A stretch of 64,000 nucleotides of DNA from Heliocidaris erythrogramma (Eukaryota > Echinodermata > Echinoidea > Camarodonta > Echinometridae): contig CM046855.1 in assembly GCA_025617745.1 (NCBI GenBank), forward strand, positions 19,747,880-19,811,879, in the 5' to 3' direction. The notes under the pieces are model-generated. The model did not search any database. It worked only from the letters and a program-made list of their open reading frames with translations, and had not been told where the DNA came from. Below are positions 1,791 to 62,951 of this stretch, one piece after another. How positions within the stretch are numbered: position 1 is the first letter of the stretch; each line of letters starts with the position of its first letter. The position numbers and the translations under genes are program-made.

Positions 1791-2127
1791 CTCATTGTCC
1801 TTTGTGAGAATTCAGTGTCTCGATTTATCAGTACATGCCAAAATCAAATCAACTTCCATGAGTGGCCCTCTTCCCACATGAGGCAACAACTGCTTCCAAA
1901 ATATGCTGCAGCAAAATAGCATCCTCTTTAATGTGTAAATTAATGGCAAGAAACAATGTTGGGGTTAAAGGACAACCCCCCCCCCCCCCCCACCCTCAAA
2001 AAAAAAAAAAGCGAAACAAAGGTGTCTACATTTACATTTACTCACTGACCTGCAATTCACAAGTTATCATTTTGGCAGCAGGTGGGTGTGTTGCCGGCTA
2101 CTTCTTGGTGACCTTCTCGGCCATCAG

Positions 2128-2529: not shown

Positions 2530-5460
2530 AAATTTCCAACAAACACTATTTTCATTTTGCCCCGGCAGTTGTTTTTTCCCCCCATACAGTTTAGTACATC
2601 ATGTGGGAATAGGGCTGTTTCAGAAAAAACACATGAAATACGCTTGCTCTATCTGGGTTAAATGGTAATGCTGTACATGAAATAGTGACATTACCCGATG
2701 TACTGCAATGACCAGCAGACATCAAATTTTCAGTGGCCTGATCCAAAAGAGTTACAACTGTAAGTATTTTTGTGCGTGGTCGTTTTAGAGATTTTTCCAG
2801 ATAATGCAGTAATGGTATATGTATAAACCGTTGAGAATCCAAGCCTACCAGAACTGCTCTTACTATAGCCTCCTGAACCATCCAGGATATTTAATGCATT
2901 TTCATATGCATGGTGTAAGCACCACCCACGTTCATTTTGAATTCAATTTGATTCTATTTTTTTCAACAAAAATTGAGAAGCTCTGGAAAAATGTTTGCAT
3001 ATTTCTTAGAAAGACGCAACATTTGCTCTGGTGATGATAGCTCCCAGCTTTATTCTGGGGTTATATTATGGTAGGGTCTGGGATTTAGGTTAGGTGTTAT
3101 ATTATGGTAGGGTCTGGGATTTAGGTTAGGTGTAGTGCTCGGTACCAGGCTGAAGTCGGGAATTAAGTTAGTATAGGACTATGATGCCATCTGAAAATGT
3201 TCAAAAGAGAAAGTAAACATTATCCATGCATTATCTGCAGTTTGCTCGTGATTCGATGCATTTTAGACTGAGATACATTTGACCATTCTTTGTAACTCAT
3301 TTCCTGTAGCTGTGATCAGATTTAAACAGGAAATAGAGATCTAAAGAATTTCCTGTTTGGTTTTAGCCCTGTCTGTTGAATTGAAGATTTTGCTTCATGT
3401 TACAGTGGAAGGTCGTCCTAAAGAACAGTACAAGTGATATAAAAAGCGATTTGCGTTAAAGGGTCGGTCCCATGACGTAAATAATCATATCTAATCGATA
3501 TGTGTATTAAACCCAATCACACACACACATTCAATTTCAAAATCCAGTGCCACAAATTTTCTTGAACAAGACTCCCAATCATTCAGTGGTCTCGTCTGTA
3601 TAAATTCATGATTACTTCAATCCTTCCCAAGCTTCAACATCACATTTTTTTCTCCTTTCACTCCCTCAAAAGCAATTTGCTGTAAAGGAAGGATTGTCTT
3701 TTAAACATATCAATGTACATAAATTCACATCAATAATCTACTTATGACAATTCAATATTTTATTTCATCAAATTGTATACATTATCTTACAAAACAAGAT
3801 TCCATTTTGACAGAGATAATATATTATCCGAGGTCAAAATATTTCTAATGCCATTCTAAATGAAACTTGATTATGTGGGAGGAGGTAAGATTTTTTTAAA
3901 AATTACCAAGAAAAAGCATCCAAAATTGAGAGTTGCAACAAATGGGCAGTAGATCACAATATATTTTCAACATACATGTATGTCAGACCTTTCAAGAAAG
4001 CTCTTCTGTTGAGAATGTTTGGATCGCAGTGAAGGAGTTCAGTTTAGCCCCCACCCACCCCCCCCCCCCAAAAAAAAGGATCACGCTGATAAAACATGTG
4101 CGCAACTGTTGATGTAATATTCACAACCCAATTGATGCACATCAAATGCATTGTACATGTATTGAAATTCTAACCCCTCCCCTAAGGAAAAGGCGCACAT
4201 AGAAATAAAGCAAAACCTATTGACACAAAGTAACAATCTCATTCATCAATATTTTGATTGCTTCACAAGCTCTATACAAATCATAAAGAATGAGATGGAG
4301 AAAAGACAAACACATGTTCAGAGTTTGAACTTGGTAGTCTTATTGTCTATAAAGTCAATTTCTGCTTGCGTTGACAACTTTGTAGAGCATCTACTTGAGA
4401 CTCAAAATACATATTGTAATTAATTGTAACTTTAACCCAAGATATGACTAAAATCAGTAAAAAAAAAAAGTGGCAAATGCAACTGCATCTCCATTATGCC
4501 TCCACCTACATTCAGTTAATCCATTATTACCACTTTGTACTTGACATGTATATTGTATAGTTTTCACCGTTGGTATATTTTACAATCATTTTTCATATGA
4601 GCTGTCTGTAAACTCTGCTTACTTTACCTCCTGATGCTGCATGCTAGGTGATTTACATCCATTAATAGGTTTTTATGAGACTGTAATTCATGTACAACAC
4701 TAAAAACTCGTAATTATCACTGATTAATCTTTGTGCCCTTTGACCTCTGACCTACTTGCCTCGAGATCCTTTAGTTCATCTCTATATTTAAAAGGTGATG
4801 CATATTGGTCCCAAGTTTGAAGTTCATGACTCAAACAGTCCTAGAAATATTGAGGTAACAAGGCTAAAACCTCGAATCTAATGGAAGTTGACCTCCATGA
4901 CCTTTGACCTACTTACCCCAAAATCTAATCAGTTCATTTCCCTATGCTGGTTCATACTATCTAAGGATTCTTGGGATATCACGATAACGAGAATGCGGGA
5001 GTACATAATGCCTCCATCACCACCTTCATTGGGAGGAGGCATAAAAATGCCTCAATAGATTATACTGAATTTGGTTTCAAAACAAAACAAATTGGCATAC
5101 AAATCATGAATATCTCATTATCATCAATGCTCTGATTCCTTTCTCTTAAAATAAAACTTACAACTAATAAATGTACATCACAAGAAAGAGACTTCCTTTA
5201 AAAAAAGGAAAGAAAAATCAAAGAATGTATGTAAAGAAATGTATTACAATCACGTTATTTGATATGTAACATTTCCTGTGGACCCCATTCAATCATGATG
5301 ATCTTCTTTCCACTTATCAAATATGTCCAACGTGGTTGTGTATACAACATTATACACTTGACATTTAATTGTATGGTACAAAGTTCAAGCCATCACTTGT
5401 TGGACACGGATAACATCCAAGTAACAGGCCAGGTTAGGAGTTCATCTCTTTCAAAGGACC
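2530..5460. other. Convergent intergenic region between DPY30 and SYMPK (includes SYMPK 3'UTR)
   Basis: No gene seen. Contents: a 36-bp direct repeat in two perfect copies (3061-3096, 3097-3132); a C-run with adjoining A-run near 4051-4077; and a decayed copy of the 'ggaggcata' repeat family at about 4738-5045, with tgacctttgacct and tgacctctgacct half-site clusters. A minus-strand AATAAA (plus-strand TTTATT at 3759-3764) is one possible SYMPK poly(A) signal, which would give a 3'UTR of about 1.7 kb; this is uncertain. Confidence 0.5.
3061..3132. repeat. 36-bp tandem duplication
   Basis: Two perfect adjacent copies of a 36-bp unit containing tagggtctgggatttagg. Simple local duplication; no function inferred. 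Confidence 0.9.
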
Positions 5461-6036: not shown

Positions 6037-9000
6037 CTGTATAAACAAAAAAATAAAGGTATGATATCAACCACCATTGGATCATCGATTTCATTTGAAC
6101 TGGCTATTTCTTAAAATGAGTCCAATAGATTTTTTTTCCTTTCTTTTTGAAGTCCTCACTTTAAAATTCAATGTACAGTTTAAAAATATTTTGGCTATGG
6201 ACTAAAAAACGAAATACTCCTCTCTCAAAATTTATATTTGCATATTAAGGTCTTCTATTTTTTGTAAGGTACTCCTGTTCTATATGCACCTAAAGAAAAA
6301 CAAAACCCCAAATAAATACTAATATCAATAATTTCTCTTCCAACCTGCTCAAAAATGTTGAGGGGTTTCAAAATTACCAATATGTACTTCCATACCAACC
6401 GCAAATCCTACCATGGCTTTGGAATAAGACATACCTGATGAGAAGAGAAGTTCTGTACATGAGCCAAGAGCTTCAGTCTCATATCCTTGCTCATCTCAAA
6501 CACATCAGCCAGCTGAGGTGGGGGTAGCTGTAAGAGTACTTGGAAAGACTGAGGTATGGTCCGCTGTAATGGCCAATAACGAAGGAAAGAAAGAACTGAT
6601 ATAACTTGATTGATATATTATTTGTGACAAATTCTTCGTTTAAGGCAAAGAAATCCTCTAAGTGATGAAGAATGAACATGTAATTTAAGTAGATAGCCAG
6701 ACTCTTTTCATGGGTAAAAACCACATGGAAACTCAACATGACCCTAAGCAACTCCCACTCCATGTATTGTTCTTGCACCAACACACATTTGGTGTCATGA
6801 AAAGAAATAAGAATGGCCACTATTTTTAAGTTACTAGGAGGCAGCATGATAGCCCAAGTGTGTTGAACATGGGTCTCACATTCCAAAGGTCCCTGGTGCA
6901 ATTACATAGTCCAATACATAATTGATGATGTTAGAGGGAAATCGCAAAATAACAGCGTAAGTTTTTAACAAATATTTGCTTATTATGAATGCGTTGCTCA
7001 GTTCCTATTCATAATATTCCCTTGTTTTACAATTCTTTTCACACAAAGTGATTTACTTGTGAATAAACAAATGAACAAACAAATAAATGAAAAGATTTAT
7101 TACTAACATTTGATCATAGTACAAGGCTTGGTTCAATTGCTACACAATTCTTTTGGTAACGAGACACCATTAGATGGCAATACAGACAACAAAACATACC
7201 TCACGTGCAGGACATACATGATGTTTCACATGGAATTAGAAATTCAATTTCCATTAAATCTTAACCCCTTTGGATGAAGGTTTTACATTCATTACGAATG
7301 TGTTTCTGATAGGTAGGACTATTACCACACTGAATTCTTGGGCTCAGTCTTTGATGGGTTAACACACGAACACCAATCTCACCTCACAACACTTGACGAA
7401 TCCTTCCCATAACTTGGATGTCTTCCACACCTGCTTGTTGATAAGCCTCAGGAGAAGGTTCATGATGAATCCCTTGAGCTTAGGATACATGGATAGAGAC
7501 TGGATGATGGTCCTGAGGAGGAGGGTAGGGAGGGGTGTCTGCTCCATCAGCTGCTGCATCACCACTGCCAGTACCTCGCCAGTGTAGATGGCTTTCTCAC
7601 TGAAACATAGACTGGTTGCTGGTGAGCATAACACAAAAAAGATTGATATGAATCGTTTGACATACACACTCACTTTTATTGTATGAAACAAGCTCTGTAT
7701 ATCTAAACTAGATGAATCTTCGACCGCGCGCGGTCGGAATTTATGCCTCCGCCATCACCAAATTGGAAATGTATGGCATACATGTACACTCTAAAAAGGA
7801 TTAGTCCAACAAAATTACAAATCTTATCACTTAAAAAGCACAGGAGACAGAAAATTTATTTCATTTCATTTTCATCCCGTACAAATAAAAAACTTACAAT
7901 TGATGACTTACAATCATCAAATACACCAAGGAAATAGATATTTTACAGCAAATAGACCACTGTCCCCTTGAAATTTCTAAAATAGGTAGGCCTAGACTCC
8001 ATACATCACGAACCATTTTTATGTATATAATGACCTCTATGACCTTTGCACTTTGACCTTGAGACCCTAAAATCTAATCAGTTCATCGTCCCTCCCATAT
8101 GAATACATGGGCCAAGTTAGAAGCTGATCCGCCAAACAGTTCCTAAGTTATCACAAGAACGAACCATTTTTATGTATATAATGACCTCTATGACCTTTGA
8201 ACTTTGACCTTGAGACCGTAAAATCTAATCAGTTCATCGTCCCTCACATATGCATACATGGGCCAAGTTACAAGCTGATCCGTCAAACAGTTCTGAAGTT
8301 ATTGCGAGAACGAACCATTTTTATGTACATAATGACCTCTGTGACCTTTGACCTTGAGACCCCAAAATCTAATCAGTTCATCGTCCCTCCCATATGCATA
8401 CATGGGCCAAGTTACAAACTGATCAGTTTTGAAGTTATCGCGAGAACGAAAGGGGGACGGACGGTGGGCGGAGGCATAAAAACATTTCTCTGAGTTTACC
8501 TTTTATGATGGATTTCATATCACATTTAGACGGATCAATATTGTGAAGAGCGACAAGAAGCTCTGCCGGTGTCAAAGGGCTTTGACCTCCGCTGCTCTCT
8601 GCTTGATGACTCATAAGAAGACGATGGAATACCTCCTTTACTACGATGGGGTTTAGACGAATCAACTTGGGCAAGGCAGATATCACATCTTTCTGTGAGG
8701 GAAACAATGAGATGGTACAATGAATTATTAGCTTTCAAGCTACAGAACATATATTCAGTTTTACTCTATCTCTATCTCATTTATGTACTAACAGAAAATA
8801 TAGGTCGGAATATGAAAATACACATTGCTAAAAATCAATTATCAACAGATTATTCTGCTCAATCTATAGCTCCGCACACCAAAAAATAAAAAAAGAAAGA
8901 AAGAAAATAAAGAAATAAATGTACATAAAGTTTGAGTGTTCAATATTCTTTTCATTCTAATACTCATTGTCAAGATCTGAGTGATGTTAGCAGTATGTTG

Positions 9001-34080: not shown

Positions 34081-34666
34081 CAGCGTTCGAGGAGCTCTTC
34101 AGCTGCTATATCGGGGGCTGTATTTTACCGTTTTATAATTGATAATAATCATTACTTCAAATGTTTCCAAGTGTTGAATTTGGATAACCTTGTTTAATTT
34201 ATGCCATCTATGCAATAATAAGTATTAAGCCAATATTTAAAATCCTTAACGTTCTACTTTAAAGAAACAAAATTCAGATTTTGGGCAAGAGTTTGTGCAA
34301 CTTTTATGAATTATCTCCTTATTTACTTACTGTCATTATATTGCATAATGGTCTCCAACAAACTAAATATTTTGAATTTTTCCCTTTTTTGTTAACACAA
34401 CATCTATTAATATAATACACTAAGGATTTGGGGCTCTTTTTTTGGTTCAAATAGGCTCCTCCCCTGGCCCTTTCGGTCCCCGCCTTTTGGTACCCACGGG
34501 TGGGGAATGGTTCTTAGAGTGGTGGGAGGCACTTCTTAAGGGCTGACGTGCCGTCCATATTTCATAAATTCATTTTTAAACATTGAATTTCTGCAGGGAG
34601 TAAGCCTAATAATTCTGCCAACCCATGAAGCGGGTTTGTAGCTTCATGCTCAGCCCAACCCATACA

Positions 34667-35783
34667 CTTTACCTGTGAAGGGGAGGTATGACAAATTAGA
34701 ACAGCGTGGCCATATCCGCATGCATGGATGGCTTCAATGTACAGTACAGTATTATACACACGTGTTAGATCGTTCGCACGTGTACAGGTCATACAGGTAC
34801 ATTACGCATAGAGTTACATCATTTGAAGCTTCATGGTCACACACACAGTTTAGTGTGTATGTAACTCTATGGTTTCACGACGTTCGCTACCAGTACGGTA
34901 TAGTCTGCAAGCACAGACCCTAATTTGACACTTTATCAGAAAATCTGATAAGAAGAAAATTCCTTCGAAAATATTTCCACTATGATATGAATACGTATAA
35001 TATGATATGAATACTTCAATGTACAGTACAGTATTATACACACGTGTTAGATCGTTCGCACGTGTACAGGTCATACAGGTACATTACGCATAGAGTTACA
35101 TCATTTGAAGCTTCATGGTCACACACACAGTTTAGTGTGTATGTAACTCTATGGTTTCACTACGTTCGCTACCAGTACGGTATAGTCTGCAAGCACAGAC
35201 CCTAATTTGACACTTTATCAGAAAATCTGATAAGAAAATTCCTTCGAAAATATTTCCACTATGATATGAATACGTATAATGAACTTTACCTGTGAAGGGG
35301 AGGTATGACAAATTAGAACAGCGTGGCCATATCCGCATGCATGGATGGCTTCAATGTACAGTACAGTATTATACAGTATTATACACACGTGTTAGATCGT
35401 TCGCACGTGTACAGGTCATACAGGTACATTACGCATAGAGTTACATTACCTTACTTTACCTGTGAAGGGGAGGTATGACAAATTAGAACAGCGTGGCCAT
35501 ATCCGCATGCATGGATGGCTTCAATGTACAGTACAGTATTATACACACGTGTTAGATCGTTCGCACGTGTACAGGTCATACAGGTACATTACGCATAGAG
35601 TTACATCATTTGAAGCTTCATGGTCACACACACAGTTTAGTGTGTATGTAACTCTATGGTTTCACTACGTTCGCTACCAGTACGGTATAGTCTGCAAGCA
35701 CAGACCCTAATTTGACACTTTATCAGAAAATCTGATAAGAAAATTCCTTCGAAAATATTTCCACTATGATATGAATACGTATA
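34667..35783 (+). repeat. Tandem array of ~330-bp units with internal hairpins
   Basis: Complete or partial units begin near 34667, 35012, 35282 and 35453. They share cctgtgaaggggaggtatga, the E-box palindrome acacgtgt, gatcgttcgcacgtgtacagg and a hairpin whose arms are catagagttaca and tgtaactctatg. The units are almost identical but start and stop at different points (deletions and truncations), which points to recent unequal exchange. The two long open frames over it (34675-34923 and 35462-35710) are copies of one another and are not supported as genes. Confidence 0.9.
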
Positions 35784-37090: not shown

Positions 37091-40000
37091 TTGGAACTTA
37101 CTGTATGAGAGGTGCGGACACAATCTACGAATGCCTTGATACAGCTTTAAAACATGGATATCGTCTTATTGGTAAGATGATGAACATTCATCAAACTGTT
37201 GTAAGGTGCCAGTGCCAGGATCAAAATTCAAATATTCCAAAGAACTATGTGTTCAGATTCAGAAACTGATACATCATAGTTTGCATTAAATTTAATGGAG
37301 TCTCTACTGCATTTTCAACTACAATTATGAACAGAAAATAGACTTTTATATTTTGTCAATGTATGTTCAACCATACAGGATTGTACGTTTTATTCCACAA
37401 GACATCTGAATCTCCATTAATTTTTTAGTTGGCTAGTTAGTTTAGTTATTTGTGTACCAGTACTTAAACGTACTTGTCAATTGTCACTATACCTCTTAAT
37501 TGCTGGTAAATTACCAGCAGTGGTAATGATAATGTTGTATTTTGAAAATCATGATAATATTGAAGTAATTGTATTTTATCAAACTTTTCTTTATATTGCT
37601 AGACACAGCTAAAGTTTACAGGAATGAAGAAGAAATTGGACTTGCTTTGAAAGAGCTTCTTCCAAAATATGGACTTTCAAGGTTTGATATCTTTATCACA
37701 AGTAAATTAGGTGAGCAGAAACAAATTAGGAAATATTTGTAATTATCATTTTATATATAATTCACTGAAAATGTTCATGTGTAGTAGTATTCAGCTTGTG
37801 ATCAAGTGATGATCATTATGTTAAGTTCCTCATGAATATTTGTAAGATACATGTATATATATACTAATTTCTTTTTTTACAAGGGTCTGCACACACAAGT
37901 GAGGAGTGTTTCAAATTTTTATATTGTCAGTTTAAGATTCAGTTTTACTTTAATGAGTAAAACTTATCCGTATAAATGATGTGACGCATTTCCTTATTAA
38001 TTATGACAAAATTCTTAAATGTCTTGCCCTGTATAAATAATGTCAATCTAGTGGACTATTTTTGAAAGTTTTTAACAATTTAATTTATAATTCACCAACC
38101 TTTATTAAACGTAAAGTCAGCAATAGACTCATATGATCATTTAATTCCCTTAATTGTTTCTTAAATGTTTAAAATATCCTATCCTTCCTACAGATGAAAT
38201 GTTAGTCCTTATTATTTATCATTATATTGTGAATTGTGAACCTGAATGTTTGAGCATTGCATGAAGCTGTGCATAAACTCACATTTACAGACAGGATGAT
38301 CTACTCTAACACATATTCTTTCATTTTCTGTGTTAAATAATCCAGCTCCAGCAGACCAGGGTGAAAAGGCATATGATGCATGTCTACTTTCATTGAAGAA
38401 ACTACAGGTAGAATATCTTGACCTCTACCTCATACACTGGCCTGGCACTCAGAAACTCAAGACAGATGATCCTAAGAATGTGGAAAACAGACGAGTGAGC
38501 TGGAAAACTTTGGAGAGATTACACAAGGAAGGTACATTTGAAAAGTTTTATTATAAATTTTTGTTGTGTTTGAAAATGTTTATTTAACTTTTAATATCAG
38601 TTTGTTTTGTTGTACAATGATTTGTAACAGAAAAAAACCATATTTTGATGACCGTAGAGAACAAAACATAACAGGAGATTGGAAGTAGATGTGTCATACT
38701 TGTGATTATTGGAATACAAGTTATTAATTGTAAAATTTAATTGATATATTTAAATGAAATGTTCATGAAAATGCTTTTCTGAATGTCGGACAATAATGGA
38801 TCTCTTGTTTTTTTGAAGGGTTGATCTGCAGTAGATAATTGACAAAAATGATATTTTCAGATCTTCCAGTTTGCAGGAATATGTACAAAAATAACTGTTT
38901 TATATATATATATATATATATAAAATGAATTTGGGTTTGTTTCAAAAAACAGTAACCATATCTAATTCAACATAGTTTTAAATAGATAAATACATATTAC
39001 AAACTAAATACAAATCATATGCCAGTCATACAAATTGTTTCGCCCAAGGGCTCTTCAGTGACTGGAAAGAGTGGTTATTTTACATCATGTCTTATACTCC
39101 TCTTACAAAGGGAGTAGTTTCATAGAGAGCAGACCTGCCAAATGTTACGAATTCCTCCTCTCACGTTGCTTTTGTTACTTTTGTTACGCATTTAAACAAA
39201 AGAAATTCGTACTAATTGGCAGCTCTGAGAGAATAGTTTATTTGAATGGGTGAACCCATTGTACATTGTATACAATACAAGAAATTTGTAGGGTGGAAAA
39301 ATGGGTCAATTTGGGGGCGTGATAAGGCATACAGTGGGAGAAAGGGGGAGGTGGGATAGCGGGAGGAAGGGGGAGGTGGGATAGCGGGAGGGGGGGGTTG
39401 GGGGGGGGGGGTTAACCATACCCAGATAACAGGTGTTTCTTCCTGTGTCTGCATGTGGAAAATAACTCGCTTCTGGAGTTCAAACATGTAGCTCTGTCAG
39501 CGGTGATGATGTGGAACTTCTCGGCTAGACAGAGGCTACATTTCTTTGATTTGGGTGAGTATGGACGGGCATGTTGGATGATCTCCCACCTTACACTATA
39601 TGGGGTACCCTGTTCTTTCTGCGACCAAATGTAATTACTGAGTTCTGTGCTGTGTCGTTTAGATTTGTTCTTGAATGATGTCTTGTGGAGAGCGTATCGT
39701 GTCTTGAATGATGTCGAAGTCAGGCCGATGTAGTGTTTCTCGTCGTCCTGCGTGGTAACGGTGGCCTTGTAGACTATGTCTTTCGATGTACATCTTCCGG
39801 GTAGAGGGCAGTCTTGCTTTTGGCGGCAGTTGCAAGTGTTGACTTCCGGTGTTGGTTCATTGACGATCGTGTTGTTGTGGGTTTTTGTAGCTGCTGCAAT
39901 GTTCGTCATGCAGCTGTAACTTAATTTGAGAGTATTTTTGTTACATATCTTCCGCAGAGGATGGTTTTCAGTGAAGTGAATCGAAATTAAGGAGAGAAAC

Positions 40001-43000
40001 TTCTTCCCTATGTTGGTCTTCACATGTCTACTAAAAGGCGGGTTGAACCACGTGACGTTGCGCTTCCGTTGCTTCTTTGTGTTTGGGTTTGGATTGTTTG
40101 GCGGCATGTAGTTGAGTGTGGTGTTGTGACCGGCATCTCGTAGTGCCTTCTCGTATGGCGCTTTCGCTTCGTTGAAGATTTCCGGTGTGCTGGATACATT
40201 CGACAGGCGTGCTTCTATGGATTGAGGTATACGCTTGATGATCGAAGGAGGATGGTTTGATTCAACATGGACGTAGAGGGGTGTATTTCCTGGCTTAGCA
40301 TATGGCTTATGCTCAGAGCTGCCAATTAGTACGAATTTCTTTTGTTTAAATGCGTAACAAAAGTAACAAAAGCAACGTGAGAGGAGGAATTCGTAACATT
40401 TGGCAGGTCTGCTCTCTATGAAACTACTCCCTTTGTAAGAGGAGTATAAGACATGATGTAAAATAACCACTCTTTCCAGTCACTGAAGAGCCCTTGGGCG
40501 AAACAATTTGTATGACTGGCATATGATTTGTATTTAGTTTGTAATATGTATTTATCTATTTAAAACTATGTTGAATTAGATATGGTTACTGTTTTTTGAA
40601 ACAAACCCAAATTCATTTAATGTAGCTCCTATTCTGTTGAGCACTATTGCTGATTTAGTTCATTTTCTCATATATATATATATATATATAGACAAAATAG
40701 GAATGAAAAGTCCGTATACGATGAAAAAATTCGAATTTTCGGCCATAGGCCTTCATCAGGAAATGATGAAAAATTATTAGATAGGTACACAAAAGAGCGT
40801 GAAGCGCAAAAAAAACCCCCAAAAAAACGCAAAAGCTCCATAGATACCAGCGCAACCATGGTAGAGATCAGGAAGGAGAGGAGAGAGAGAGAGAGAGAAA
40901 GAGAAAGATATAGAGGCGTAATAGAGCAGAAGCGCAGAAAGGGAGAAAGCTCCATGGAAACTCGCGCAACCATGGTAAAAGAAGTTAAAGAGGAGAGAGA
41001 GAGAGAGAGAAAGAGAGAAAGTAATAGAGATAGAGGCGTAATGAAACGTCATAAAAGAAGAGAAAAAGAAAACAAAAAAGGAGAAGCGCTAAAAGGGACA
41101 AAGCTCCATGGAAACTCTCGCAACCATGGTAAAGAAAGTTAAGAGGAGAGAGAGAGAGAGAAAACACGTCACAAAGAAAGAAGAGAGAGAACTAATGAAA
41201 CAGAAATAATTAATATTGTTCAGCAACTCAATTCAACTAAAAGCAGAGATTTTGAAGGAATTAGTCAGTATATTATAAAACATGTTATACATTTCATTGC
41301 TAAACCACTTGTTCATATATGTAATCTTTCCTTTTTGTCAGGAAAAGTCCCTAAAAATTTTAAAGTAGGAAAACTTATACCCATATTTAAAAAAGGTGAT
41401 GCTCACTTATTTTCTAATTACCGACCTATATCATTACTCCCCTGCTTTTCTAAGATACTGGAAAAATTAATTTACAATAGGCTTTTAAGTCATATTAATA
41501 AATATAATATTTTGAATGATTCTCAATATGGTTTTAGAAGTAATTCATCTTGTGGACATGCTTTAATTGACCTACACGATCACATTCTAAATAAATTGAA
41601 TAATAAATTGCATACATTGGGTTTGTTTCTTGATCTATCCAAAGCCTTTGATGTTATTAATCACGATATTCTCCTTACTAAATTAAATAATTGTGGTATA
41701 CGTGGTATTGCGTGGGATTGGTTTAGGAATTACTTAAGTGATCGTCATCAATTTACGTCATACAATAACTTTGTTAGTCACAGAGAGAGGATCCATTGTG
41801 GAGTCCCACAGGGCTCCATACTGGGTCCTCTCCTATTTCTGATTTACATCAATGATCTTTGTTCTGTTTCCTCATTTTTCCATTTTGTTTTCTTTGCAGA
41901 TGACACTAATATTATTGCATCTCATAATGATTTTGGTAAATTAATGACAGAAGTAAATAAAGAATTAGAAAAAGTTGCTGATTGGTTTAATGCTAATGAA
42001 TTGATTATAAATTATGACAAAACAAGTGTACTTTATTTTCATAATAAATCCAATCCTTATAATGTTAATGATATAAAAATAACTATAAATGATGTAAATC
42101 TGAATGTTTGTTCTACAGTTAAATTTCTTGGTATCCTCTTAGATGACACTCTATCCTTTCAGGGTCATCGATTATATATCACAAACAAAATAGCTAAAAA
42201 TATTGGTGTTCTTTGTAAATTACGTGTAACACTAACTGAAAAAGTATTGTTTATGTTATATAATTGTTTAATTTTACCATATTTATATTATTGTAATATC
42301 ACCTGGGCCGGTGTGGGAACAACAATATTAGAACCTCTATATAAACTTCAAAAGAAAGCATTACGAATTTGTACTAATTCCCATTACCAAGCTCGTTCAC
42401 GTCCTTTGTTCTTTCGCTTAAACACCCTCAATATTTATGATATACACAATATCCAAAGTGCTATCATGATGTACAACATTTCTAATAATAATTCACCTAA
42501 AAGAGTTTCCCAAATGTTTATTCTTAATAAATCTGTTCATTCATATAATACTCGCTCATGTTCCAATTATCATTATCAAAAGGTTTCTACCCAATCTATG
42601 CTCAACTCTGTTCGACATAATGGTCCCCGTATTTGGAATGAATTAACTGATGAACTAAGATTATGCACTACTTTGTCTTCATTTAAGGCTCATTTGAAGA
42701 GACAATTGATCTCTTCGTATTATACTTAACTCTTTCAAATCTACTCACTGTTATAATTATATATTTTCCCCATGCTACATGTATGTATATTGTGTGTGTG
42801 TTTGCGCGCGTGTGAGGGTTTGTGTGTGTTGATCGTTGTGTATTTCTAATGTGTTAATATCATATAGATTTTTTTTTCTTCTGAGTAACGTGTAAACCAT
42901 AAATTCTGTTATCCATTAAGTACATCAGGGGACTATTGCTTACAAGTTTTCGACACTTCCTTATAGTCTCCTATTTCATCATGATTTCCAAATGTATAAT

Positions 43001-44383
43001 TATGATTGACTCATGTTACTTTTGTATTATATTTTTATATTTTTATGATTGAAATAAATAAACTGAACTGAACTGAACTGAACTGAAAAAAAAAAAAAAA
43101 GGGGGGGGGAAGAGGGAGAGAGAGAGGGGGGGAGAGGAAAAAAGAAAATAAAGAGAGGAAGATGAAGCACAACGGAAAGAAAAAAAAAAGAAGAAAAGGG
43201 GGAAAAGGAGGAAGTAGTGAAGAAAGTTTAAAGAGCAAAAGGAAGAGAGGGAGAGAGAGGAAAAAAAAAAAGTAGAAGAAAAGCAGAACGAAGAATGGAA
43301 GAGAAAGGTGGAAAGGACAAAAAGAAAACATTCAATTCGTACGAAATGATCGAAATGTTACATTCATCCCACGAGGATGAAGGGTTCCCAGGTGGAAAAT
43401 CAGTCTTTCCTCCCTTCTCTTCCTGGATAGATCATCGCCATTGCACTTGATGGCGCCCATCACTTTGAAATCTTCAACCGAGTGGCCGGGGAGGTTGAAA
43501 TGACGTGAGAAAAAGGCATCATCCCGCGTTCCCCTGGTGTTAACGTATAATGAGCCGAATGCTAGACTCGCGTCTACCATCAAGAAAAATTTCAAGTTGC
43601 TGAGTGACAACCCCTCAACTTCTCACATTTTCAGCGAACCCCCTCTGACAGCGTTCAGGAAGGACAAAAGCCTGAAATCAACCTTGGTCCATTCAAACCA
43701 CACCAGAGTCCAACCTGCTGACAGAGACCTAGATTCCTGTCCTTGCCTCCGCCCACGATGCAAGACATGCTCCCGTCTTTCTACAGAACGTAACATCAGT
43801 GGCCCCAAGGGCAATTTCACCATCCATGATAATTTCACCTGCACGACGGAGAATGTAATCTACGTGATTTGTTGCAAGGCCTGCAATCTACTGTACGTGG
43901 GCGAAACCAAGCGGCGTCTAGCGGACCGGGTTACTGAACATCTACGTTCCATACGTCTGAACACAAGTGGCTTGCCTGTTGCACGCCATTTCAACCTCCC
44001 CGGCCACTCGGTTGAAGATTTCAAAGTGATGGGCGCCATCAAGTGCAATGGCGATGATCTATCCAGGAAGAGAAGGGAGGAAAGACTGATTTTCCACCTG
44101 GGAACCCTTCATCCTCGTGGGATGAATGTAACATTTCGATCATTTCGTACGAATTGAATGTTTTCTTTTTGTCCTTTCCACCTTTCTCTTCCATTCTTCG
44201 TTCTGCTTTTCTTCTACTTTTTTTTTTTTTCCTCTCTCTCCCTCTCTTCCTTTTGCTCTTTAATCTTTCTTCACTACTTCCTCCTTTTCCCCCTTTTCTT
44301 CTTTTTTTTTTCTTTCCGTTGTGCTTCATCTTCCTCTCTTTATTTTCTTTTTTCCTCTCCCCCCCCTCTCTCTCTCCCTCTTC

Positions 44384-44414
<31 letters not shown>

Positions 44415-47400
44415 CTCTCTCTTCTTTCTTTGTGACGTGTTTCTCTCTCTCTCTCTCTCCTCTTAACTTTCTTTACCATGGTTGCGAGAGTTTCCATGGA
44501 GCTTTGTCCCTTTTAGCGCTTCTCCTTTTTTGTTTTCTTTTTCTCTTCTTTTATGACGTTTCATTACGCCTCTATCTCTATTACTTTCTCTCTTTCTCTC
44601 TCTCTCTCTCCTCTTTAACTTCTTTTACCATGGTTGCGCGAGTTTCCATGGAGCTTTCTCCCTTTCTGCGCTTCTGCTCTATTACGCCTCTATATCTTTC
44701 TCTTTCTCTCTCTCTCTCTCCTCTCCTTCCTGATCTCTACCATGGTTGCGCTGGTATCCATGGAGCTTTTGCGTTTTTTGGGGGTTTTTTTTTTGCGCTT
44801 CACGCTCTTTTGTGTACCTATCTAATAAATTTTCATCATTTCCTGATGAAGGCCTATGGCCGAAAATTCGAATTTTTTCATCGTATACGGACTTTTCATT
44901 CCTATTTTGTCTATAACTTTGCAAGTCCGAAGCAGAACTATATTTTTTTATATATATATAGATATATATATATACCTGTATGTTTTGTGTTTATGACATA
45001 TAAAATATGTTGTTCTTGTTAATGACAGGGAAGTGCAAACAGATTGGAATTTCAAACTACTTAGTCAGACACATGGAAGAACTTTTCACGTATGCAGAAA
45101 TTCAACCAACTGTAAATCAAGTATGTTCTGGAGTTTCCAACACTTTTGTCATTTAAGAGAATGAGTCTGTTGATGGAAAAAAAAAATCATTTTAAGACAC
45201 AGACACTTGTTATTATCATTTATATTAAGGTTTTCATTACAACAATCAGTTTAGAGCTTATTTTTAAATAATGCAGTGTGTTCAGTCTTTTGAAGATTAA
45301 CATTAAAATGGTTTAAGGTCAGAGGTCACGTATGTTGGCAATAGTTGTAGTTGCCATACGGTAATTTGAGAAGTAATTGATAGATTAATATCACCCATAT
45401 CATGAATTTCCTTTTCTAAATATTAAAGTATAATTAATCATGTCCTTCAGTGGATAAAAAAGTACTGCAGTTTAAAAAGTTACATTTGTTCTCTTTCAGA
45501 GTGAATATCACCCTCTCTGTTTGAATAAAGATGTTGTGGAATGTTGTCGGGGGAATGGTATTCAGTTTCAAGCATACAGTTCACTTGGAAGAGGAGAAGT
45601 GAGTACCAGTAATCCACATTGGTATTATTTTCCATCATCTGAAAGTATAGGCCTACTATGGATTCTGGAAAGGACATGCACAAAAAGAAAAGAATTTGAT
45701 AAAGTTGTTCCCATTACTTATATGTCATTCCCCCATGATAAGCCGTTCCTACATGTACCATTTAGTAGGTGGCTCCCATCATTTACTGAGTTGTTCCAAC
45801 TCCTTACTAAGTGTTGGGAACCCTTGAATTGGCATAACTAAAGTCGGGGTAATATTGGTGACGATAGGAGTGCCTTGAGCACCTTGCATAGTGGATACGA
45901 GCACTATACCAGCCAATCCGCAGCGCGTATGCTTTTGAGTCCCTCATTGCAGACTTCTGGTTTGCGGACTTGAATAATTTGCGTACACTGAACTCAGCGC
46001 GATTTGCAGGGTGAGTTTGCAGTGCATTCATATTGTTTAAAGCATTATTTTTACAACCAGAATTGACAATAATTTTGGTACTTTTTAATCAGCGATTTTG
46101 CATGGTATTTTTTACTTGTGTTTCCTGATCCTGGTACCAAAGAAAATTGCTTGATTGGAATGGTTTACCAGAGTGAACAAACATTCCAATGACCAAAATA
46201 TATAAAAATGAAGTTGACGCAAAAACGTATTCTTGGAAACTTTTGAGAACCGATTTACCCTAAAATACAAAAATATTTAGGTTTTGACCTGAAGTAACAA
46301 CATTAATAATTTTAAGCTTGCACGAAACTATGCCAATATTGCATGAAGTTTTGTTTGTATCAGGATGCGGCCTGGGGCAGTAATCTGAAAACTGTTGTAT
46401 CTCTAATATTGTTGAATCTTCACCATTAAAAATGGTTGGTTTTCTGAGTAACTTTTTTCTCCTCATTTTCCTCTCTTAAATCTTTACCCACCAGTCAAAC
46501 GTTGGGCATGTAGTGTTTGTAAACTGATGATAATGGTGCATAATCCTAATTAACATAATTACACACACACTGAAAGATAATCATGAAATGATTGGTATTC
46601 TGAATATTGTTGTATCTTTTGTTTTATCTCGTCTTCCATGCTATTTATAACAAAATGTACAACAACTAGAGTTCTTTGTGCATACAAGTACATAGGAGGT
46701 ACATTGGCAAGTCTCCCCTATTTCAAATTGTTTTAATCAATATACACATGGGTTTTATTGGTTCTTGACCCTGGTACTCCATATTATTCAATGATTTCGA
46801 TTTTTTGACACTATTAGGAAGAAGAAAATGTACTTGTTCTACATATAAAATTTTGCTGATGCAATGTTAATATAATAGTAGAAAATAGCACAGTTCCTTA
46901 ATTATTTTTTTTTTGCCAATATCCTAGCCCGAACATCCATCCCTGAATCCTTATGCACAGGAAATTGGTGCATTGACCAATCAACTTCATATTTTCATCT
47001 ATAAAATGCAACCTAAATCATGCAAAATGAGCTATTCTACGCGACAAAATAAAAATTGGAACAACCCCATGCATCGCTTATTACATATGCAAGCAGTAAG
47101 CACTCATGCATACACCTGAATAAGTAGAAGCAAATTATCTCGTGCAGTGTATAGACTGATACAGGGGGCCAGTATTATTATAATTATTGTATGTCTTTTT
47201 GTTTCCAGCTGCTGAAAAATCCTACAGTAATGTCTATTGCAGACAGGTTACAGCACAAACCTTGCCAGGTCCTCCTCAAATGGGCCATGCAGGATGGCAT
47301 AGGTAAGAGCACAGTGATCCAACATTATGCTCCAGCAGCATTTGCTAAGGACTTTATTTTGTCAAACTGTAGGGTTTAGTTTGCGATTGCACTTTTATGT

Positions 47401-57218: not shown

Positions 57219-57518
57219 GGGATGGCTAAATAAATATTAAATATTTTTGTTGAATATAATCATTGCAGATGAGTGCTGGTCAGGCATTGCTTACAGTAGA
57301 GAAATATAAGTAGTAGAATTAAGAATATAAAATTACTTTGTATAAACTATTTACATGTAGCTTACATAAGGCACAAATTAGAAATCATATTTCTATACAT
57401 TGTAAGAGACACACTTGACTAGCAAAAATTACTAAAAAAAAAAAAAATATATATATATATATTTGAAAACAAATATTGAAAGAAAGAGAAAATCAATTTC
57501 TCTTTCATCTAGGTCATT

Positions 57519-58583
57519 ATGGACTTAGAAAATACAAATATTCCTGCAAATTCCTCAACTGAGAACACGACTGGAGATGATAGTCCAAAGTGTTGGGCGA
57601 ATGATGTGACTGACCCAGAGGTGGTAGTTCGTGTTGGAGAATTTGGTGATTCCATTCCGGAAAGGGGTCGACAAGAGTATACGTCACAAGAGTTCAGGTT
57701 AAATGCTCAGTATGTGGACAGTACAGACCCAACCGAGATGGTAGGCCGCACAAGTGGAATCTCCTCCCGAAGAGATGTACTACCCGAGAAGTTTGGTGGT
57801 AAAATGCCATGGCAGGACTATCGACGACACTTTGAAGTGTGTATGAACCTTAATGGCTGGAGTGACTTGGAAGCAGGACAATATTTGGCAACTAGACTGC
57901 ATGGCCCTGCACTGAAAGTACTTGGAGGTTTTGCGTCGCATGACAAGATCACCTACGGTAAATTGGCGAGTCATCTGGGACAAAGATTTGGTCCAGGAGA
58001 GAATGCTGAAAACTTTCTCATCGAGTTGAGAATGAGACGAAGACGAAAAGATGAATCATTGCAAGAGCTGGGACAAGCAATACGCGATTTGACAAGTCTT
58101 GCTTACCCGGAACTGAGTAGTGATGCGAGGGAGCGCCTTGCGAGAGGACATTTCTCGGATGCGATAGAAGAGCAGGAAATCCGAGCTGGAATATTCCGTG
58201 CAAATCCCACTACTCTCGATGGAGCTATCCGTGCTGCTCTTGCCACTGAATCCTTCATGAAGTCAGAGAGGGTGAGAGATCGCTTCAAGCCGGCCCATCA
58301 GATTCGCTCAATGGAAAGCAAGGCTGAGCCAGCTCCTGTAGATGAGAAGACAAGAAGAGAAATTCAAGAATTAAAGTCAAGTTTGCAACAGCTTACTACA
58401 ATGATTGAGAAGTTGGCAGTGACTCCTAAAGTTGGCAGTAACAATAGAGTTTGTTATTTCTGCCGAGAACCAGGACATGTTATCAGAGACTGCCCTAACA
58501 AAAATCGTGCTCAGGGAAACGACAACAGGCCTTCCCAGTGGGCCATGGGACGGTCACGCCCCCAGCAAGGTCCCAGGACATAG
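57519..58583 (+). CDS. gag: gag
   Basis: 354 aa capsid/nucleocapsid polyprotein that packages the element's RNA. An N-terminal acidic leader of about 90 residues precedes a helical capsid core (from EKFGGKMPWQDYRRHF to roughly residue 250, with LATRLHGPALKVL and FLIELRMRRRRKDESLQEL), as in Ty3/gypsy retrotransposon gag. A single CCHC zinc knuckle CYFCREPGHVIRDC is at residues 312-325, followed by a basic Q/R/P tail. A splice-acceptor-like tctctttcatctag ends 6 nt before the ATG. The last 85 bases overlap the pol frame, which is -1 relative to gag. Confidence 0.92.
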   Translation: MDLENTNIPANSSTENTTGDDSPKCWANDVTDPEVVVRVGEFGDSIPERGRQEYTSQEFRLNAQYVDSTDPTEMVGRTSGISSRRDVLPEKFGGKMPWQDYRRHFEVCMNLNGWSDLEAGQYLATRLHGPALKVLGGFASHDKITYGKLASHLGQRFGPGENAENFLIELRMRRRRKDESLQELGQAIRDLTSLAYPELSSDARERLARGHFSDAIEEQEIRAGIFRANPTTLDGAIRAALATESFMKSERVRDRFKPAHQIRSMESKAEPAPVDEKTRREIQELKSSLQQLTTMIEKLAVTPKVGSNNRVCYFCREPGHVIRDCPNKNRAQGNDNRPSQWAMGRSRPQQGPRT

Positions 58584-60511
58584 GAGATGATTCTGAAGTG
58601 AATTTGCCTCATGCAATTTGTACCATAAATGAAAATCAAGATGGCATGTTTGTTCCTATTAGAATTTTTGGTGTTATAGTGTTATTTCTTATTGATACGG
58701 GAGCCATGGTTACCGTTTTGAACAATCAAGTGCATGGAAGACTATCAAAAATCCAATCTGGATTACAGTCAACATATGTGAGACTACAGCAAGCAGATGG
58801 TACACCTATAAGAGTACATGGAAGTTTAAACACTGATGTGGAAATTGGTGGCACACATCTAGAGACTGAACTTGTAGTAGCTGACATTGAAAATGAAGGC
58901 ATTCTTGGAATGGATGTACTTTCACGGACTGGAAGTATTATCAACTGTGACAAATATGAGGTAAACTGCAATGGGGAGCTCATTCGTTGCATCAGAAGGA
59001 GTGAACGTTGCCAAGTGGGACATGTTGATGTATTTGAAGAGGTACCAGAATTTCTGAATGATTTACTTAGTAGATCGCTGACAAACATCAGCAATTCAGA
59101 TCAACTTAAACTTGTCAAATTACTGATACAGCACAAAGACGTATTTAGCAAGGGAGATCATGATCTGGGTAGGACAGACAAGATTACTCACTCAATACAT
59201 ACAACCTGTGCAGCCCCTATCAGACAACGCCCAAGACGCCCACCTATGGGACAGAGGGAGGAAATTGAGAAACAGGTGCAAGACATGCTAGATAGAGGCA
59301 TTATCAAGCATTCCGCAAGCCCATGGTCGTCACCAATAGTACTGGTAGACAAGAAAGACGGCTCCAAACGGTTCTGTGTAGACTACAGAGAATTGAATAA
59401 ACAAACAATTCGAGACTCTTTTCCCCTTCCTAGAATTGATGAGTCTATCGACTGTCTAGCAGGTGCAAAATACTTTTGCACTTTGGACTTAGCAGCCGGT
59501 TACTGGCAGGTACCACTGGATGAAGATGCAAAACTCAAATCAGCATTTGTAGTGCCAGGTGGACTATTTCAATTTGAGGTCATGCCGTTCGGGCTATGTA
59601 ATGCCCCTTCAACATTTGAGCGTCTAATGGAAACTGTACTAGCTGGACTACAATGGAAAAGCGTTCTAATCTATCTGGATGATGTGATAGTGTTCGGCTC
59701 CACGGTTGAAGAGGTAGTACAGAGATTAGAGGCCGTATTCATACGACTTAAAGAGGCAAAGTTAAAATTGAAGCCCAAGAAGTGTCACCTCTTTCAACTG
59801 GAAGTCTTGTACCTTGGTCATGTGGTGTCGGAAGAGGGAGTGAGCACCGACCCATCCAAAACGGAAGCAGTAAGGAATTGGCCTACCCCAACTTCTGTCA
59901 CTGGTGTGAGAAGCTTCCTTGGATTAGCATCCTACTATCGCCGATTCATCCACAAATTCTCTGATGTAGCAAAGCCCATGACGGAATTAACCAGGAAAGA
60001 AACACCCTTCGTCTGGACTGAGCGATGTGAAGCTGCTTTTCAAGCACTAAAAATCAAACTGACCACGACACCAATCTTGGCATATCCACGCATAGGGGAA
60101 GGATTTCTACTAGACACTGATGCAAGTAAAGATGCAATTGGAGCTGTACTTTCTCAGGAAGAAGAAGGCAGAGAACGAGTCATTGCATATGCCAGCACCA
60201 CTCTCAGCAAGGCAGAGCAGAATTACTGTGTGACACGCAGGGAGCTGCTTGCTATAGTCTACTTCCTTAAACATTTCAGACCCTATTTGTATGGACAAGA
60301 TGTAACTGTTCGTACTGACCATGGAGCACTGAGATGGTTACTCAACTTCAAGAACCCAGAAGGGCAATTAGCACGGTGGTTAGAGGTTGTTAGTCAGTAT
60401 AAACTCACCCTTGTGCATCGGGCAGGAAGGCAACACTGCAATGCTGATGGTCTCTCACGCCGTCCTTGTCGTCAATGCGGTCAAGCAGAGAACGTCTGCA
60501 GTAATGAATAA
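58499..60511 (+). CDS. pol: pol part 1: aspartic protease, reverse transcriptase, RNase H
   Basis: Open from 58499 (-1 to gag), stop at 60509-60511. Counting from the GTG at 58538: protease LFLIDTGAMVTVLN with catalytic Asp at about residue 53; RT with KKDGSKRFCVDYRELN, LDLAAGYWQVP, MPFGLCNAPSTFERLM and YLDD at 379-382; GVRSFLGLASYYRRFI connection; RNase H with LLDTDASKDAIGAVL (Asp about 526), RRELLAIVYFLKHFRPYLYG, TDHGAL and the GRQHCNADGLSRRP end. These are the standard gypsy blocks in standard order. The frame stops right after RNase H; the integrase is not fused, which is unusual. Likely produced as a gag-pol fusion. Confidence 0.93.
   Translation, partial: QKSCSGKRQQAFPVGHGTVTPPARSQDIGDDSEVNLPHAICTINENQDGMFVPIRIFGVIVLFLIDTGAMVTVLNNQVHGRLSKIQSGLQSTYVRLQQADGTPIRVHGSLNTDVEIGGTHLETELVVADIENEGILGMDVLSRTGSIINCDKYEVNCNGELIRCIRRSERCQVGHVDVFEEVPEFLNDLLSRSLTNISNSDQLKLVKLLIQHKDVFSKGDHDLGRTDKITHSIHTTCAAPIRQRPRRPPMGQREEIEKQVQDMLDRGIIKHSASPWSSPIVLVDKKDGSKRFCVDYRELNKQTIRDSFPLPRIDESIDCLAGAKYFCTLDLAAGYWQVPLDEDAKLKSAFVVPGGLFQFEVMPFGLCNAPSTFERLMETVLAGLQWKSVLIYLDDVIVFGSTVEEVVQRLEAVFIRLKEAKLKLKPKKCHLFQLEVLYLGHVVSEEGVSTDPSKTEAVRNWPTPTSVTGVRSFLGLASYYRRFIHKFSDVAKPMTELTRKETPFVWTERCEAAFQALKIKLTTTPILAYPRIGEGFLLDTDASKDAIGAVLSQEEEGRERVIAYASTTLSKAEQNYCVTRRELLAIVYFLKHFRPYLYGQDVTVRTDHGALRWLLNFKNPEGQLARWLEVVSQYKLTLVHRAGRQHCNADGLSRRPCRQCGQAENVCSNE
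58514..58520 (+). promoter_or_regulatory. Predicted -1 ribosomal frameshift site (GGGAAAC)
   Basis: In the gag frame the bases read G GGA AAC, a canonical X XXY YYZ slippery heptamer, 61 nt before the gag stop and inside the gag-pol overlap (pol frame open from 58499). The pol frame has no ATG before the protease, so it needs a shift. Downstream DNA is moderately GC-rich; I did not fold it. Confidence 0.7.
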
Positions 60512-60631
60512 GTAAACATATAAATTATTCAATTAGTTGAATTGAACATTTTCATGCATTGACATTTTCTATTTATGTGTATTAAATAGGTGCTTTACTA
60601 TGTTAACTTGATGTGAACAGTGACTGCAAAA

Positions 60632-62080
60632 ATGAGTTTGGAGGACAAAATAGTTGATAAGATACAAGCAATACAATTGTCACCGACTATTACATATGAT
60701 GACATAAGAAGAGTCCAATTACAGGATCCTGATGTTAAACATGTACTGCGCTGGAAAGAGCAAAACGAACACAGGCCTAACTGGAAAGATGTATCCAGCC
60801 TCTCATCAGCAACTAAGAAATATTGGATAAATTGGGACTTGTTAGAAGTCAAGGATGAAGTGCTAACTCGGAGATGGGAATCAGACAATGGAAAGGAGGT
60901 CAATTGGAAGATAGTACTACCACGTGCTTTGAGACACAAAGTTCTGCTTGAACTACATAGTTCAAATACTGGTTGTCATTTGGGAATGAACAAACTGTTA
61001 CACAAAGTCCAACAACGGTATTACTGGGTTGGACTAACAGCAGATGTACGGTCAATGGTCCGGAAATGCAATGTCTGTGCAAAACTGAAGAACCCACCTA
61101 AGAAGGCTAGAGCCCCTTTGCAACAATATCGTGTTGGAGCCCCCATCGAGAGGGTGGCAGCTGATATATTGGGCCCTCTGCCCATCACAGATAGAGGAAA
61201 CAAATATATCCTTGTAGTAGGAGACTATTTTACCAAGTGGGTAGAAGCCTATCCACTGCCAAACCAAGAAGCTATCACCATAACTAGAGTGTTAGTTCAA
61301 GAGTTTATCTCAAGATTTGGTGTACCCAAAGAATTGCACACTGATCAGGGACGCAACTTTGAATCCAATGTCATGACAGAAGTATGTAAAATACTAGGCA
61401 TTAAGAAAACCAGGACTTGCCCATTACACCCTAGGGGAGATGGATTTGTAGAAAGATTCAATCTTACCTTAGTAAGCACTGTTGCCTCCATACTCGAACC
61501 GGATAGGAACCAGAAGGACTGGGATGAGAAAGTGCCCCTGGCAATGATGGCATATAGATCATCTGTTCAGGAATCAACCGGTGAAATTCCAGCGATGATG
61601 ATGATGGGAAGAGAAATTCCTTTGCCACTCGATGTCTTGGTTCAATCTCCATCTCCTGAAAGACGAGAAGAAACAGATTATACATTTGAATTACGTCAGA
61701 AGCTTCAAGATGTACATGAAGATGCGAGAGAGAAGTTACGCCTGAGTGCTGATCGCCAAGCGAAAACCTATGACAGGAACACCCAATTAAGAAGTTTCCA
61801 CACAGGGGACTGGGTGTGGTTGAGTGGTGTACATAGGAAAAGAGGTGTCTGCCCCAAGTTCATGGCAAAATGGACAGGGCCATATCTGATAATTGACAAG
61901 TTATCTGATGTTGTATATAGGATACAGCAAAGTAGGGAATGTAAAGCCAAAGTGGTGCACTTAGATAGATTGAAGTCCTATGAGGGTCCCACCATGAAGG
62001 ATTGGACTAAACTATTACCCCCTAGGAGAAATCCCGAAAGAGTTAAGCGAATACCCAAACGATACAGTTGGGTAGAATAA
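60632..62080 (+). CDS. int: Integrase in its own ORF
   Basis: 482 aa from the ATG at 60632 (in-frame GTG at 60620 directly follows an AG). HHCC zinc domain: HSSNTGCHLG..RKCNVCAKL (from about residue 109). The catalytic core has D178 (ADILGPLP), D238 (HTDQGRNF) and E274 (GFVERFN): the D,D(35)E spacing is exact. A GPY/F-type module (KWTGPYLIIDKL, about residue 414) and LDRLKSYEG follow; no chromodomain. The ORF is in the same frame as pol part 1, but about 120 nt and several in-frame stops lie between, so readthrough is implausible. An acceptor-like ttgatgtgaacag precedes it. The N-terminal 100 residues are not recognised. Confidence 0.92.
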   Translation: MSLEDKIVDKIQAIQLSPTITYDDIRRVQLQDPDVKHVLRWKEQNEHRPNWKDVSSLSSATKKYWINWDLLEVKDEVLTRRWESDNGKEVNWKIVLPRALRHKVLLELHSSNTGCHLGMNKLLHKVQQRYYWVGLTADVRSMVRKCNVCAKLKNPPKKARAPLQQYRVGAPIERVAADILGPLPITDRGNKYILVVGDYFTKWVEAYPLPNQEAITITRVLVQEFISRFGVPKELHTDQGRNFESNVMTEVCKILGIKKTRTCPLHPRGDGFVERFNLTLVSTVASILEPDRNQKDWDEKVPLAMMAYRSSVQESTGEIPAMMMMGREIPLPLDVLVQSPSPERREETDYTFELRQKLQDVHEDAREKLRLSADRQAKTYDRNTQLRSFHTGDWVWLSGVHRKRGVCPKFMAKWTGPYLIIDKLSDVVYRIQQSRECKAKVVHLDRLKSYEGPTMKDWTKLLPPRRNPERVKRIPKRYSWVE

Positions 62081-62123
62081 CAAGCTCATTTATGAATGCC
62101 TTTAATTTCTTTACTTTATACAG

Positions 62124-62951
62124 ATGCCCCGTTGCCGCAGGTGTAAAGATGACTTTGGAAATTACCGGGAATTGAAGAGCCACCTGAGGGACAGGCATGA
62201 TTCCGACCTAACATACAAGTGTCGGAAGTGCGATTTTGAAAATGAAGACGAGAAGCCATTGCTGAGGCATTACAGACGACAGCACAAAATGACAGGAAAA
62301 GAGACAAGGTACAATAAGTATGACGAGGCCTCGATCAGATATCTTCGACGAAGAGATGCTAAGGAGAGACAGAAAAGGAGAGAAGAGGAGGAAAGAAAGG
62401 AGAGAAACAGCAAGGAGGAGGAGAGAAAGGAGAAAAGTAAGAAAGAAGAAGAAGTAAGAGAAGAAAGCCACAAGGAGAAAACGGAAGAAGAAGTAAGAGA
62501 GGAAAGCCGCAGTGAGGAGGACAGAAAGGAAAAGGAGGCTGAAAGAAGAGAAATGGCCAGACGAGTGGCAAGGCAGATAGAGGAAGAGAAGAGGAGGAGA
62601 GAAGCGGAGATCAGTGTCATTGCGAGTGACCATGAGGAGGAAGACGATAACAGCGAGAAATCCGAGTCTGAGTGCAGTGAAGAGAGCGTAGAGGAGAGTG
62701 AAGAAGAAGAAGAGAGTGAAGAAGAAGAGCGTAAAGAGGAACGACAGGTATCTCCTCTCAGGATGTGCATCGACAGACCATACGACGACCAGTTCAACGT
62801 GACATGCACTGTGCAACAGCCCAAACTTGGGATTACGCAACTAAAATGTGTCACGGTCACTACGGAAACGTACATCAACGTAAGAGGACAAAGTGTTCTC
62901 CACGAGAGGAGGGTTTCGAACTTTTACCCCCATGATGAGCTTTCTGATTAA
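62124..62951 (+). CDS. Fourth ORF: two C2H2 zinc fingers plus long charged region
   Basis: 275 aa. The ATG abuts an excellent 3' splice site (tttctttactttatacag|ATG). Two fingers of form C-x2-C-x12-H-x4-H occupy residues 4-54 (CRRCKDDF..HLRDRH and CRKCDFEN..HYRRQH). Then come about 110 residues rich in E/K/R (EERKE, KEEEVREES, likely a single long helix), an acidic stretch (SEEEEESEEEE) and a folded-looking C-terminus (CIDRPYDDQFNVTCTVQQP..CVTVTTETYINVRGQ). There is no signal peptide or membrane segment, so it is not an envelope protein. A nucleic-acid-binding accessory protein is plausible; the function is unknown. Confidence 0.8.
   Translation: MPRCRRCKDDFGNYRELKSHLRDRHDSDLTYKCRKCDFENEDEKPLLRHYRRQHKMTGKETRYNKYDEASIRYLRRRDAKERQKRREEEERKERNSKEEERKEKSKKEEEVREESHKEKTEEEVREESRSEEDRKEKEAERREMARRVARQIEEEKRRREAEISVIASDHEEEDDNSEKSESECSEESVEESEEEEESEEEERKEERQVSPLRMCIDRPYDDQFNVTCTVQQPKLGITQLKCVTVTTETYINVRGQSVLHERRVSNFYPHDELSD

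Follow-up and report, generated by a model that had tools for sequence, protein, structure and literature searches.

A minimal type I hammerhead motif in the inverted terminal repeats of a truncated Penelope-like element within a Heliocidaris erythrogramma reductase intron

Does a hammerhead motif that lies in an intron serve the host gene, or does it belong to the mobile element that carried it there? The question is raised by a stretch of 64,000 nt of Heliocidaris erythrogramma DNA (GCA_025617745.1, CM046855.1, positions 19,747,880-19,811,879, forward strand), which is called the window here and whose own positions serve as coordinates throughout. An intron of an aldo-keto reductase gene on its plus strand contains the remains of a Penelope-like element (PLE) and two hammerhead motifs in opposite orientations. 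The element is very probably a recent, 5'-truncated copy of an animal PLE with inverted pseudo-long terminal repeats (pLTRs), each of which carries the element's own minimal type I hammerhead. The motif, the arms, the truncation, the intron and the predicted masking of one copy by the other can be seen in the window itself.

The plus-strand motif spans positions 40476-40519. Stem I is formed by CCAGTCA (40476-40482) and TGACTGG (40513-40519), which enclose the core CTGAAGA (40483-40489), a stem II of GCCC-TT-GGGC (40490-40499), GAAA (40500-40503) followed by C 40504, the loop AATTT (40505-40509) and a GTA triplet (40510-40512). This arrangement satisfies the type I order CUGANGA...GAAA...NUH, in which core position 7 tolerates any base, and GUA is a cleavable triplet. 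As read from the letters, stem I is an uninterrupted 7-bp helix without helix I-II tertiary contacts, and helix III is reduced to two or three pairs. Judged by its sequence, the motif is a complete minimal type I hammerhead, with cleavage predicted after 40512. An identical hammerhead lies on the minus strand at 39022-39065. An earlier note on this DNA had listed the same parts, all of which are present, but its coordinates for the plus-strand motif (40475..40518) are one base low and its cut after 40511 is replaced by the predicted cleavage after 40512. The position and identity of the inverse copy were given correctly.

A motif of this kind is rarely met by chance. When the 64 kb were scanned for a core, a stem II of at least 3 bp, GAAA, NUH and a stem I of at least 6 bp, just these two motifs were recovered, one per strand. 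Across 300 random 64-kb windows matched for dinucleotide make-up, one full motif was found. The core pattern with GAAAC occurs twice in the window against 0.05 expected, although the two copies count as one event in such comparisons because they are one duplicated sequence. Relaxed forms of the motif appeared 0 times (modelled on the window) and once (modelled on a related locus, L001, described below) per 20 million random bases.

The duplicated sequence consists of two inverted arms, 38923..39229 on the minus strand and 40312..40618 on the plus strand, which match at 307/307 bases; from 38917, the match covers 313 bases at 99%. Identical arms indicate a recent passenger insertion. Between them lies a 5'-truncated open reading frame (ORF) on the minus strand (39412..40308; 298 codons and a stop), which encodes a connector with CxC...C cysteines and a GIY-YIG endonuclease and from which the catalytic motifs of reverse transcriptase (RT) are missing. 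A spacer that is C-rich on the sense strand (39230..39411, minus) separates the ORF stop from the first arm. This arm is the 3' pLTR, and its hammerhead is sense to the ORF and begins 346 nt past the stop. The hammerhead of the second, inverted arm is antisense to the ORF and sense to the host gene. Thus, the earlier note was right to describe exact 307-bp inverted arms, each with a hammerhead, in opposite orientations relative to the PLE ORF.

Its naming of a PLE as the carrier is upheld as well by homologues of the ORF with up to 65% identity and by a GIY-YIG endonuclease fold at the C-terminus. The RT part that is cut off in this copy is represented in longer relatives by YRDD upstream in frame, and Pfam RVT_1 was recognised in 1/32 cases. 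In the sub-threshold list from Foldseek, rank 2 is T4 EndoII and rank 4 is I-TevI, both of which we take to be GIY-YIG enzymes. No relatives were found among viral contigs by protein search, alignment or DNA pattern.

Three related loci (L001-L003), obtained from one scan of genome contigs for such proteins, bear on whether the hammerhead belongs to the element. Two of the three have a hammerhead core in sense orientation 3' of the ORF. L001 holds the C-terminal end of one PLE ORF (48% identical to that of the window) and then the N-terminal part of another (49% to L002). Between the stop of the first ORF (1129) and the second ORF, the sense strand at 1250-1293 reads CCACAC-CTGACGA-TCCAGCAATGGT-GAAAC-GGGCC-GTT-GTGTGG, in which all hammerhead parts are present and the basal position of stem II is mismatched (U·U). 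Such a mismatch is likewise reported in one axolotl hammerhead (PMC7229834). Two stem I pairs differ between the window and L001 on both sides with pairing kept, which is only suggestive of conserved pairing, as these are the two complete PLE hammerhead sequences compared. L002 carries the core CTGACGA-GTGCGTAAGCAC-GAAAC in sense orientation about 125 nt past its ORF stop, where the contig end cuts it.

L002 also contains, at 1-3787, head-to-head PLE copies that are 92% identical over 1,519 bases. Their joint lies near the N-terminus of one copy and RT motif A of the other.

Several observations weigh against our assignment of the motif and its carrier. Rfam returned no hammerhead match for the whole window at the gathering score, for 1.75 kb at E<=10, or for the L001 motif. 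Given 81 bases, it scored Hammerhead_1 (RF00163) at 18.8 bits (E 0.015) and the RAGATH-1 hammerhead at 19.0 bits, below their gathering scores of 34 and 56.3. The earlier note had named the lack of a covariance-model match as grounds for refuting its claim, and at curated thresholds that was the outcome, a weakness that is probably explained by the lack of helix III in minimal PLE hammerheads. In a 48-nt piece folded alone, the A-U pair of stem III is predicted at 0.13, and the predicted best fold of L001 is not a hammerhead. The pair counts for the two sequences were equalled in 135/500 shuffles. L003 has no canonical hammerhead core, and the distance from ORF stop to hammerhead is 346 nt in the window versus 120 in L001 and about 125 in L002. 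The records of all three relatives are labelled bacterial, and we take them to be eukaryotic (animal) DNA. For the window ORF, Pfam on its own gave no recognition, a sequence search of solved structures gave no relative at E<=1, and Foldseek gave no match at E<=0.001. Finally, a comparison of the outer flanks revealed no target-site duplication; the longest word that they share is 5 bases and lies off the ends.

The Rfam scores, this absence of a duplication in the outer flanks and an ordinary single-strand folding energy (z -0.63, with the hammerhead not the best fold) speak for a chance hammerhead-like sequence, or for inverted arms created by an assembly artefact. We consider either hardly credible. 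Chance is opposed by the single motif in 300 random windows, by the scarcity of relaxed motifs in random sequence (0 and 1 per 20 million bases) and by the recurrence of the motif, sense and 3' of the ORF, in L001 and of its core in L002. In a fold-back read artefact, the arms would be expected to adjoin as a palindrome, with no 1,082-bp spacer between them.

The host gene can be read on both sides of the insertion. One aldo-keto reductase exon (38300..38531, plus; 38300 is an approximate 5' limit) ends in codon phase 1, and the next (45029..45120, plus) was placed by reading. Pfam gives aldo-keto reductase exons flanking the region, with E values of 6.5e-05 and 2e-04 (22.6 and 21.0 bits, both below the curated cut-off of 24). 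When 38531 is joined to 45029, the frame is kept and runs on across the splice, with the product ...WKTLERLHKEGKCKQIGISNY... and with GT and AG at the ends of a phase 1 intron of 6,497 bp (38532..45028, plus). The earlier note was therefore right to place the element in the intron of a reductase gene read on the plus strand. Its further proposal, that the plus-strand copy could cut this intron, finds little support, given the predicted masking and the mixed PLE precedents described next.

Folding was assessed by equilibrium prediction, with tertiary contacts and kinetics outside the model. In the 48-nt piece alone, stem I is predicted at 0.82-1.0 and stem II at about 0.75. Stem I is predicted at about 0.5 within the arm and at about 0.1 or less in 39230-40624, a segment without the antisense arm. 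Once both arms are included in the transcript, the best fold pairs 44/44 hammerhead bases with their antisense counterparts; stem I then has a probability of 0 to six decimals. In the window locus, the plus-strand motif would be a passenger in the reductase intron, masked by its antisense twin, and so little or no cutting is expected of it. In normal sense PLE transcripts, the hammerhead would act on tandem RNAs, perhaps with the aid of the PLE protein. We infer that its role lies in the element and that it has no effect on the host gene.

Published evidence on protein-free cleavage by PLE hammerheads is mixed. The hammerhead of PAc (Poseidon of Anolis) is reported to cleave only with the PLE protein in an assay at 5 mM Mg, and according to that report no RNA-seq ends mapped to the site and its mutation left insertion unaffected (PMC11167929). 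The same authors state that they had earlier seen PLE hammerhead self-cleavage at 3-25 mM Mg2+ (PMC11167929), which speaks against an inert motif. Considering the predicted masking together with these reports, the reductase gene could be affected, but this is unlikely, and as an intronic ribozyme the window hammerhead is probably inert.

It could still be argued that the plus-strand hammerhead serves the host by cutting the reductase intron after 40512 and altering splicing or output, as a counterpart of the conserved amniote intronic hammerheads. An intact motif lies in sense orientation to the gene, in an intron read from both flanking exons; however, the antisense twin with which it is predicted to pair completely is transcribed first. 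Taken alone, the piece is predicted to fold into stems I and II, but stem I falls to about 0.5 in the arm alone and has no loop for a contact between stem I and loop II. In RECK and C10orf118, the intronic hammerheads show both conservation and in vitro activity (PMC3088659), whereas identical arms suggest that this insertion is young. As for PLE precedents, the self-cleavage stated at 3-25 mM Mg2+ stands against the protein dependence of the PAc hammerhead at 5 mM Mg and its lack of RNA-seq ends (PMC11167929). Taken together, we regard a host function as very improbable. We give slightly less credence still to a self-regulating ribozyme/antisense pair, in which the ribozyme would cut the reductase pre-mRNA during transcription, ahead of closure of the 307-bp hairpin, or be freed from that hairpin by editing or unwinding of the RNA. 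Equilibrium folding is blind to co-transcriptional kinetics, a point that counts against our reading of the locus, and long hairpins are subject to adenosine editing.

The stem III sequence (ACAATTTGT) is almost its own complement, with a U·U in the middle, and its dimer has a predicted energy of -4.1 kcal/mol. A double-hammerhead form is known for newt motifs (PMC6155905). Such a form is therefore possible in tandem PLE RNAs. It is not possible within one transcript of the window locus, which cannot hold two sense copies because one copy is inverted.

How might the inverted copy have arisen? On the sense strand, both arms end at one common base after AAACAAACCCAAATTCATTT, and a (TA)n run lies on one side. 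We favour two-ended priming, in which the intron would have been cut on both strands by the PLE protein, at an AT-rich site next to the (TA)n run. With each free 3' end as primer, reverse transcription of a PLE RNA would then have begun at one shared AC-rich start site. One complementary DNA (cDNA) would have extended past the pLTR and ended in the ORF at 40308, the other would have ended within the pLTR, and the two would have been joined head to head. In PAc, reverse transcription begins in an AC-rich stem loop within the ORF, targets are AT-rich, and both target strands are cut and extended from start sites that are alike between strands (PMC11167929). That start site lies inside the ORF, however, and the window copy is without the N-terminal part needed for comparison.

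The arms might instead have been made when a single cDNA snapped back and primed its own extension on an antisense template, the self-priming route suggested for Penelope in Adineta; we consider this origin possible but doubtful. Palindromes at inverted junctions argue for it (PMC3846280), yet the inner junction in the window joins unrelated sequence (ORF versus pLTR spacer), with no palindrome in the bases inspected. The 307/307 identity is compatible with copying from a single molecule, but the head-to-head copies in L002 are just 92% identical; barring a misassembly of that contig, two templates explain this better than self-priming does. Extension of both target strands by PAc (PMC11167929) likewise speaks for two primings. 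Two-ended, internally primed integration predicts arms with one AC-rich start base and unrelated inner ends, and thus surveys of arm ends and identity could separate the models. The window copy is of value mainly for what may be a footprint of PLE integration primed from two ends. It also suggests that counts of intact PLE hammerheads may overstate the active ones where copies are inverted.

A second PLE-like insert occupies positions 40687-44915 of the same intron. It has inverted ends, for example 40995-41164 / 44441-44610 (99%) and 40687-40827 / 44775-44915 (96%), and further nested inverted repeats. Its GIY-YIG ORF is at 43504-44157, and the endonuclease ORFs of the two intronic inserts show no significant similarity (E 0.24). 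Within it, 41143-43090 contains an RT ORF that by eye is of the long interspersed nuclear element type (Pfam RVT_1, 41143-42729), with a (CTGAA)n tail and an A-run. Both of its arms (44843-44865 plus, 40759 minus) contain the hammerhead-like sequence CTGATGA-A-GGCC-TAT-GGCC-GAAA. We rejected this as a canonical hammerhead, given the extra A before stem II and no stem I by eye, and Rfam on one arm gave no hammerhead match. A similar CTGATGA-A-GGTGGC-TT-GCCACC-GAAA is present at L003 6979 (minus), so that the unusual spacing is common to two sources.

Elsewhere in the window, an LTR-type retrotransposon at 57513-62951 has protease, RT, RNase H and integrase ORFs as well as a C2H2 zinc-finger ORF (62106-62951). 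A near-identical 105-aa frame on both sides of it, at 54156 and 63206, probably marks its LTRs. C-terminal exons of Symplekin lie at 7359-8734 on the minus strand (Pfam PF12295, E 7.7e-34 and 3.7e-14). Near-identical reading frames at 34642-34923 and 35396-35710, about 0.8 kb apart, form a direct duplication.

Minimal type I hammerheads in PLE terminal repeats have been published (Cervera and de la Pena 2014, via PMC6155905, PMC7229834), and the window hammerhead shares their core, short stem II, nearly absent helix III and location (PMC6155905, PMC7229834). The minimal copies of axolotl PLEs are said to be in tandem, whereas one of the two in the window is inverted. Inverted pLTRs, including those around 5'-truncated copies, are described for Penelope (PMC3846280, PMC8969392), and thus the inverted arrangement is not the unusual feature that the earlier note took it to be. 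Penelope of Adineta vaga likewise has a 5'-truncated ORF between inverted pLTRs (PMC3846280). Several of its copies have target-site duplications of 8-10 bp, unlike the window copy, although one truncated inverted group is similarly described without them. The word "hammerhead" occurs 0 times in that paper, whereas the window arms have hammerheads.

PAc resembles the window element as a GIY-YIG PLE with a hammerhead at the pLTR, AT-rich targets and an AC-rich start, but its hammerhead overlaps the start codon and its copies are tandem (PMC11167929). The RECK and C10orf118 hammerheads also reside in spliceosomal introns and have a suggested mobile-element origin; they are conserved across species, whereas the window motif is an apparent young insertion opposite its own complement (PMC3088659). 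Among the titles and abstract openings listed, we found no report of a hammerhead pair in inverted PLE arms within an intron, which is not proof of absence. The window copy is a further case that unites two published features, the minimal PLE hammerhead and inverted pLTRs around a 5'-truncated copy.
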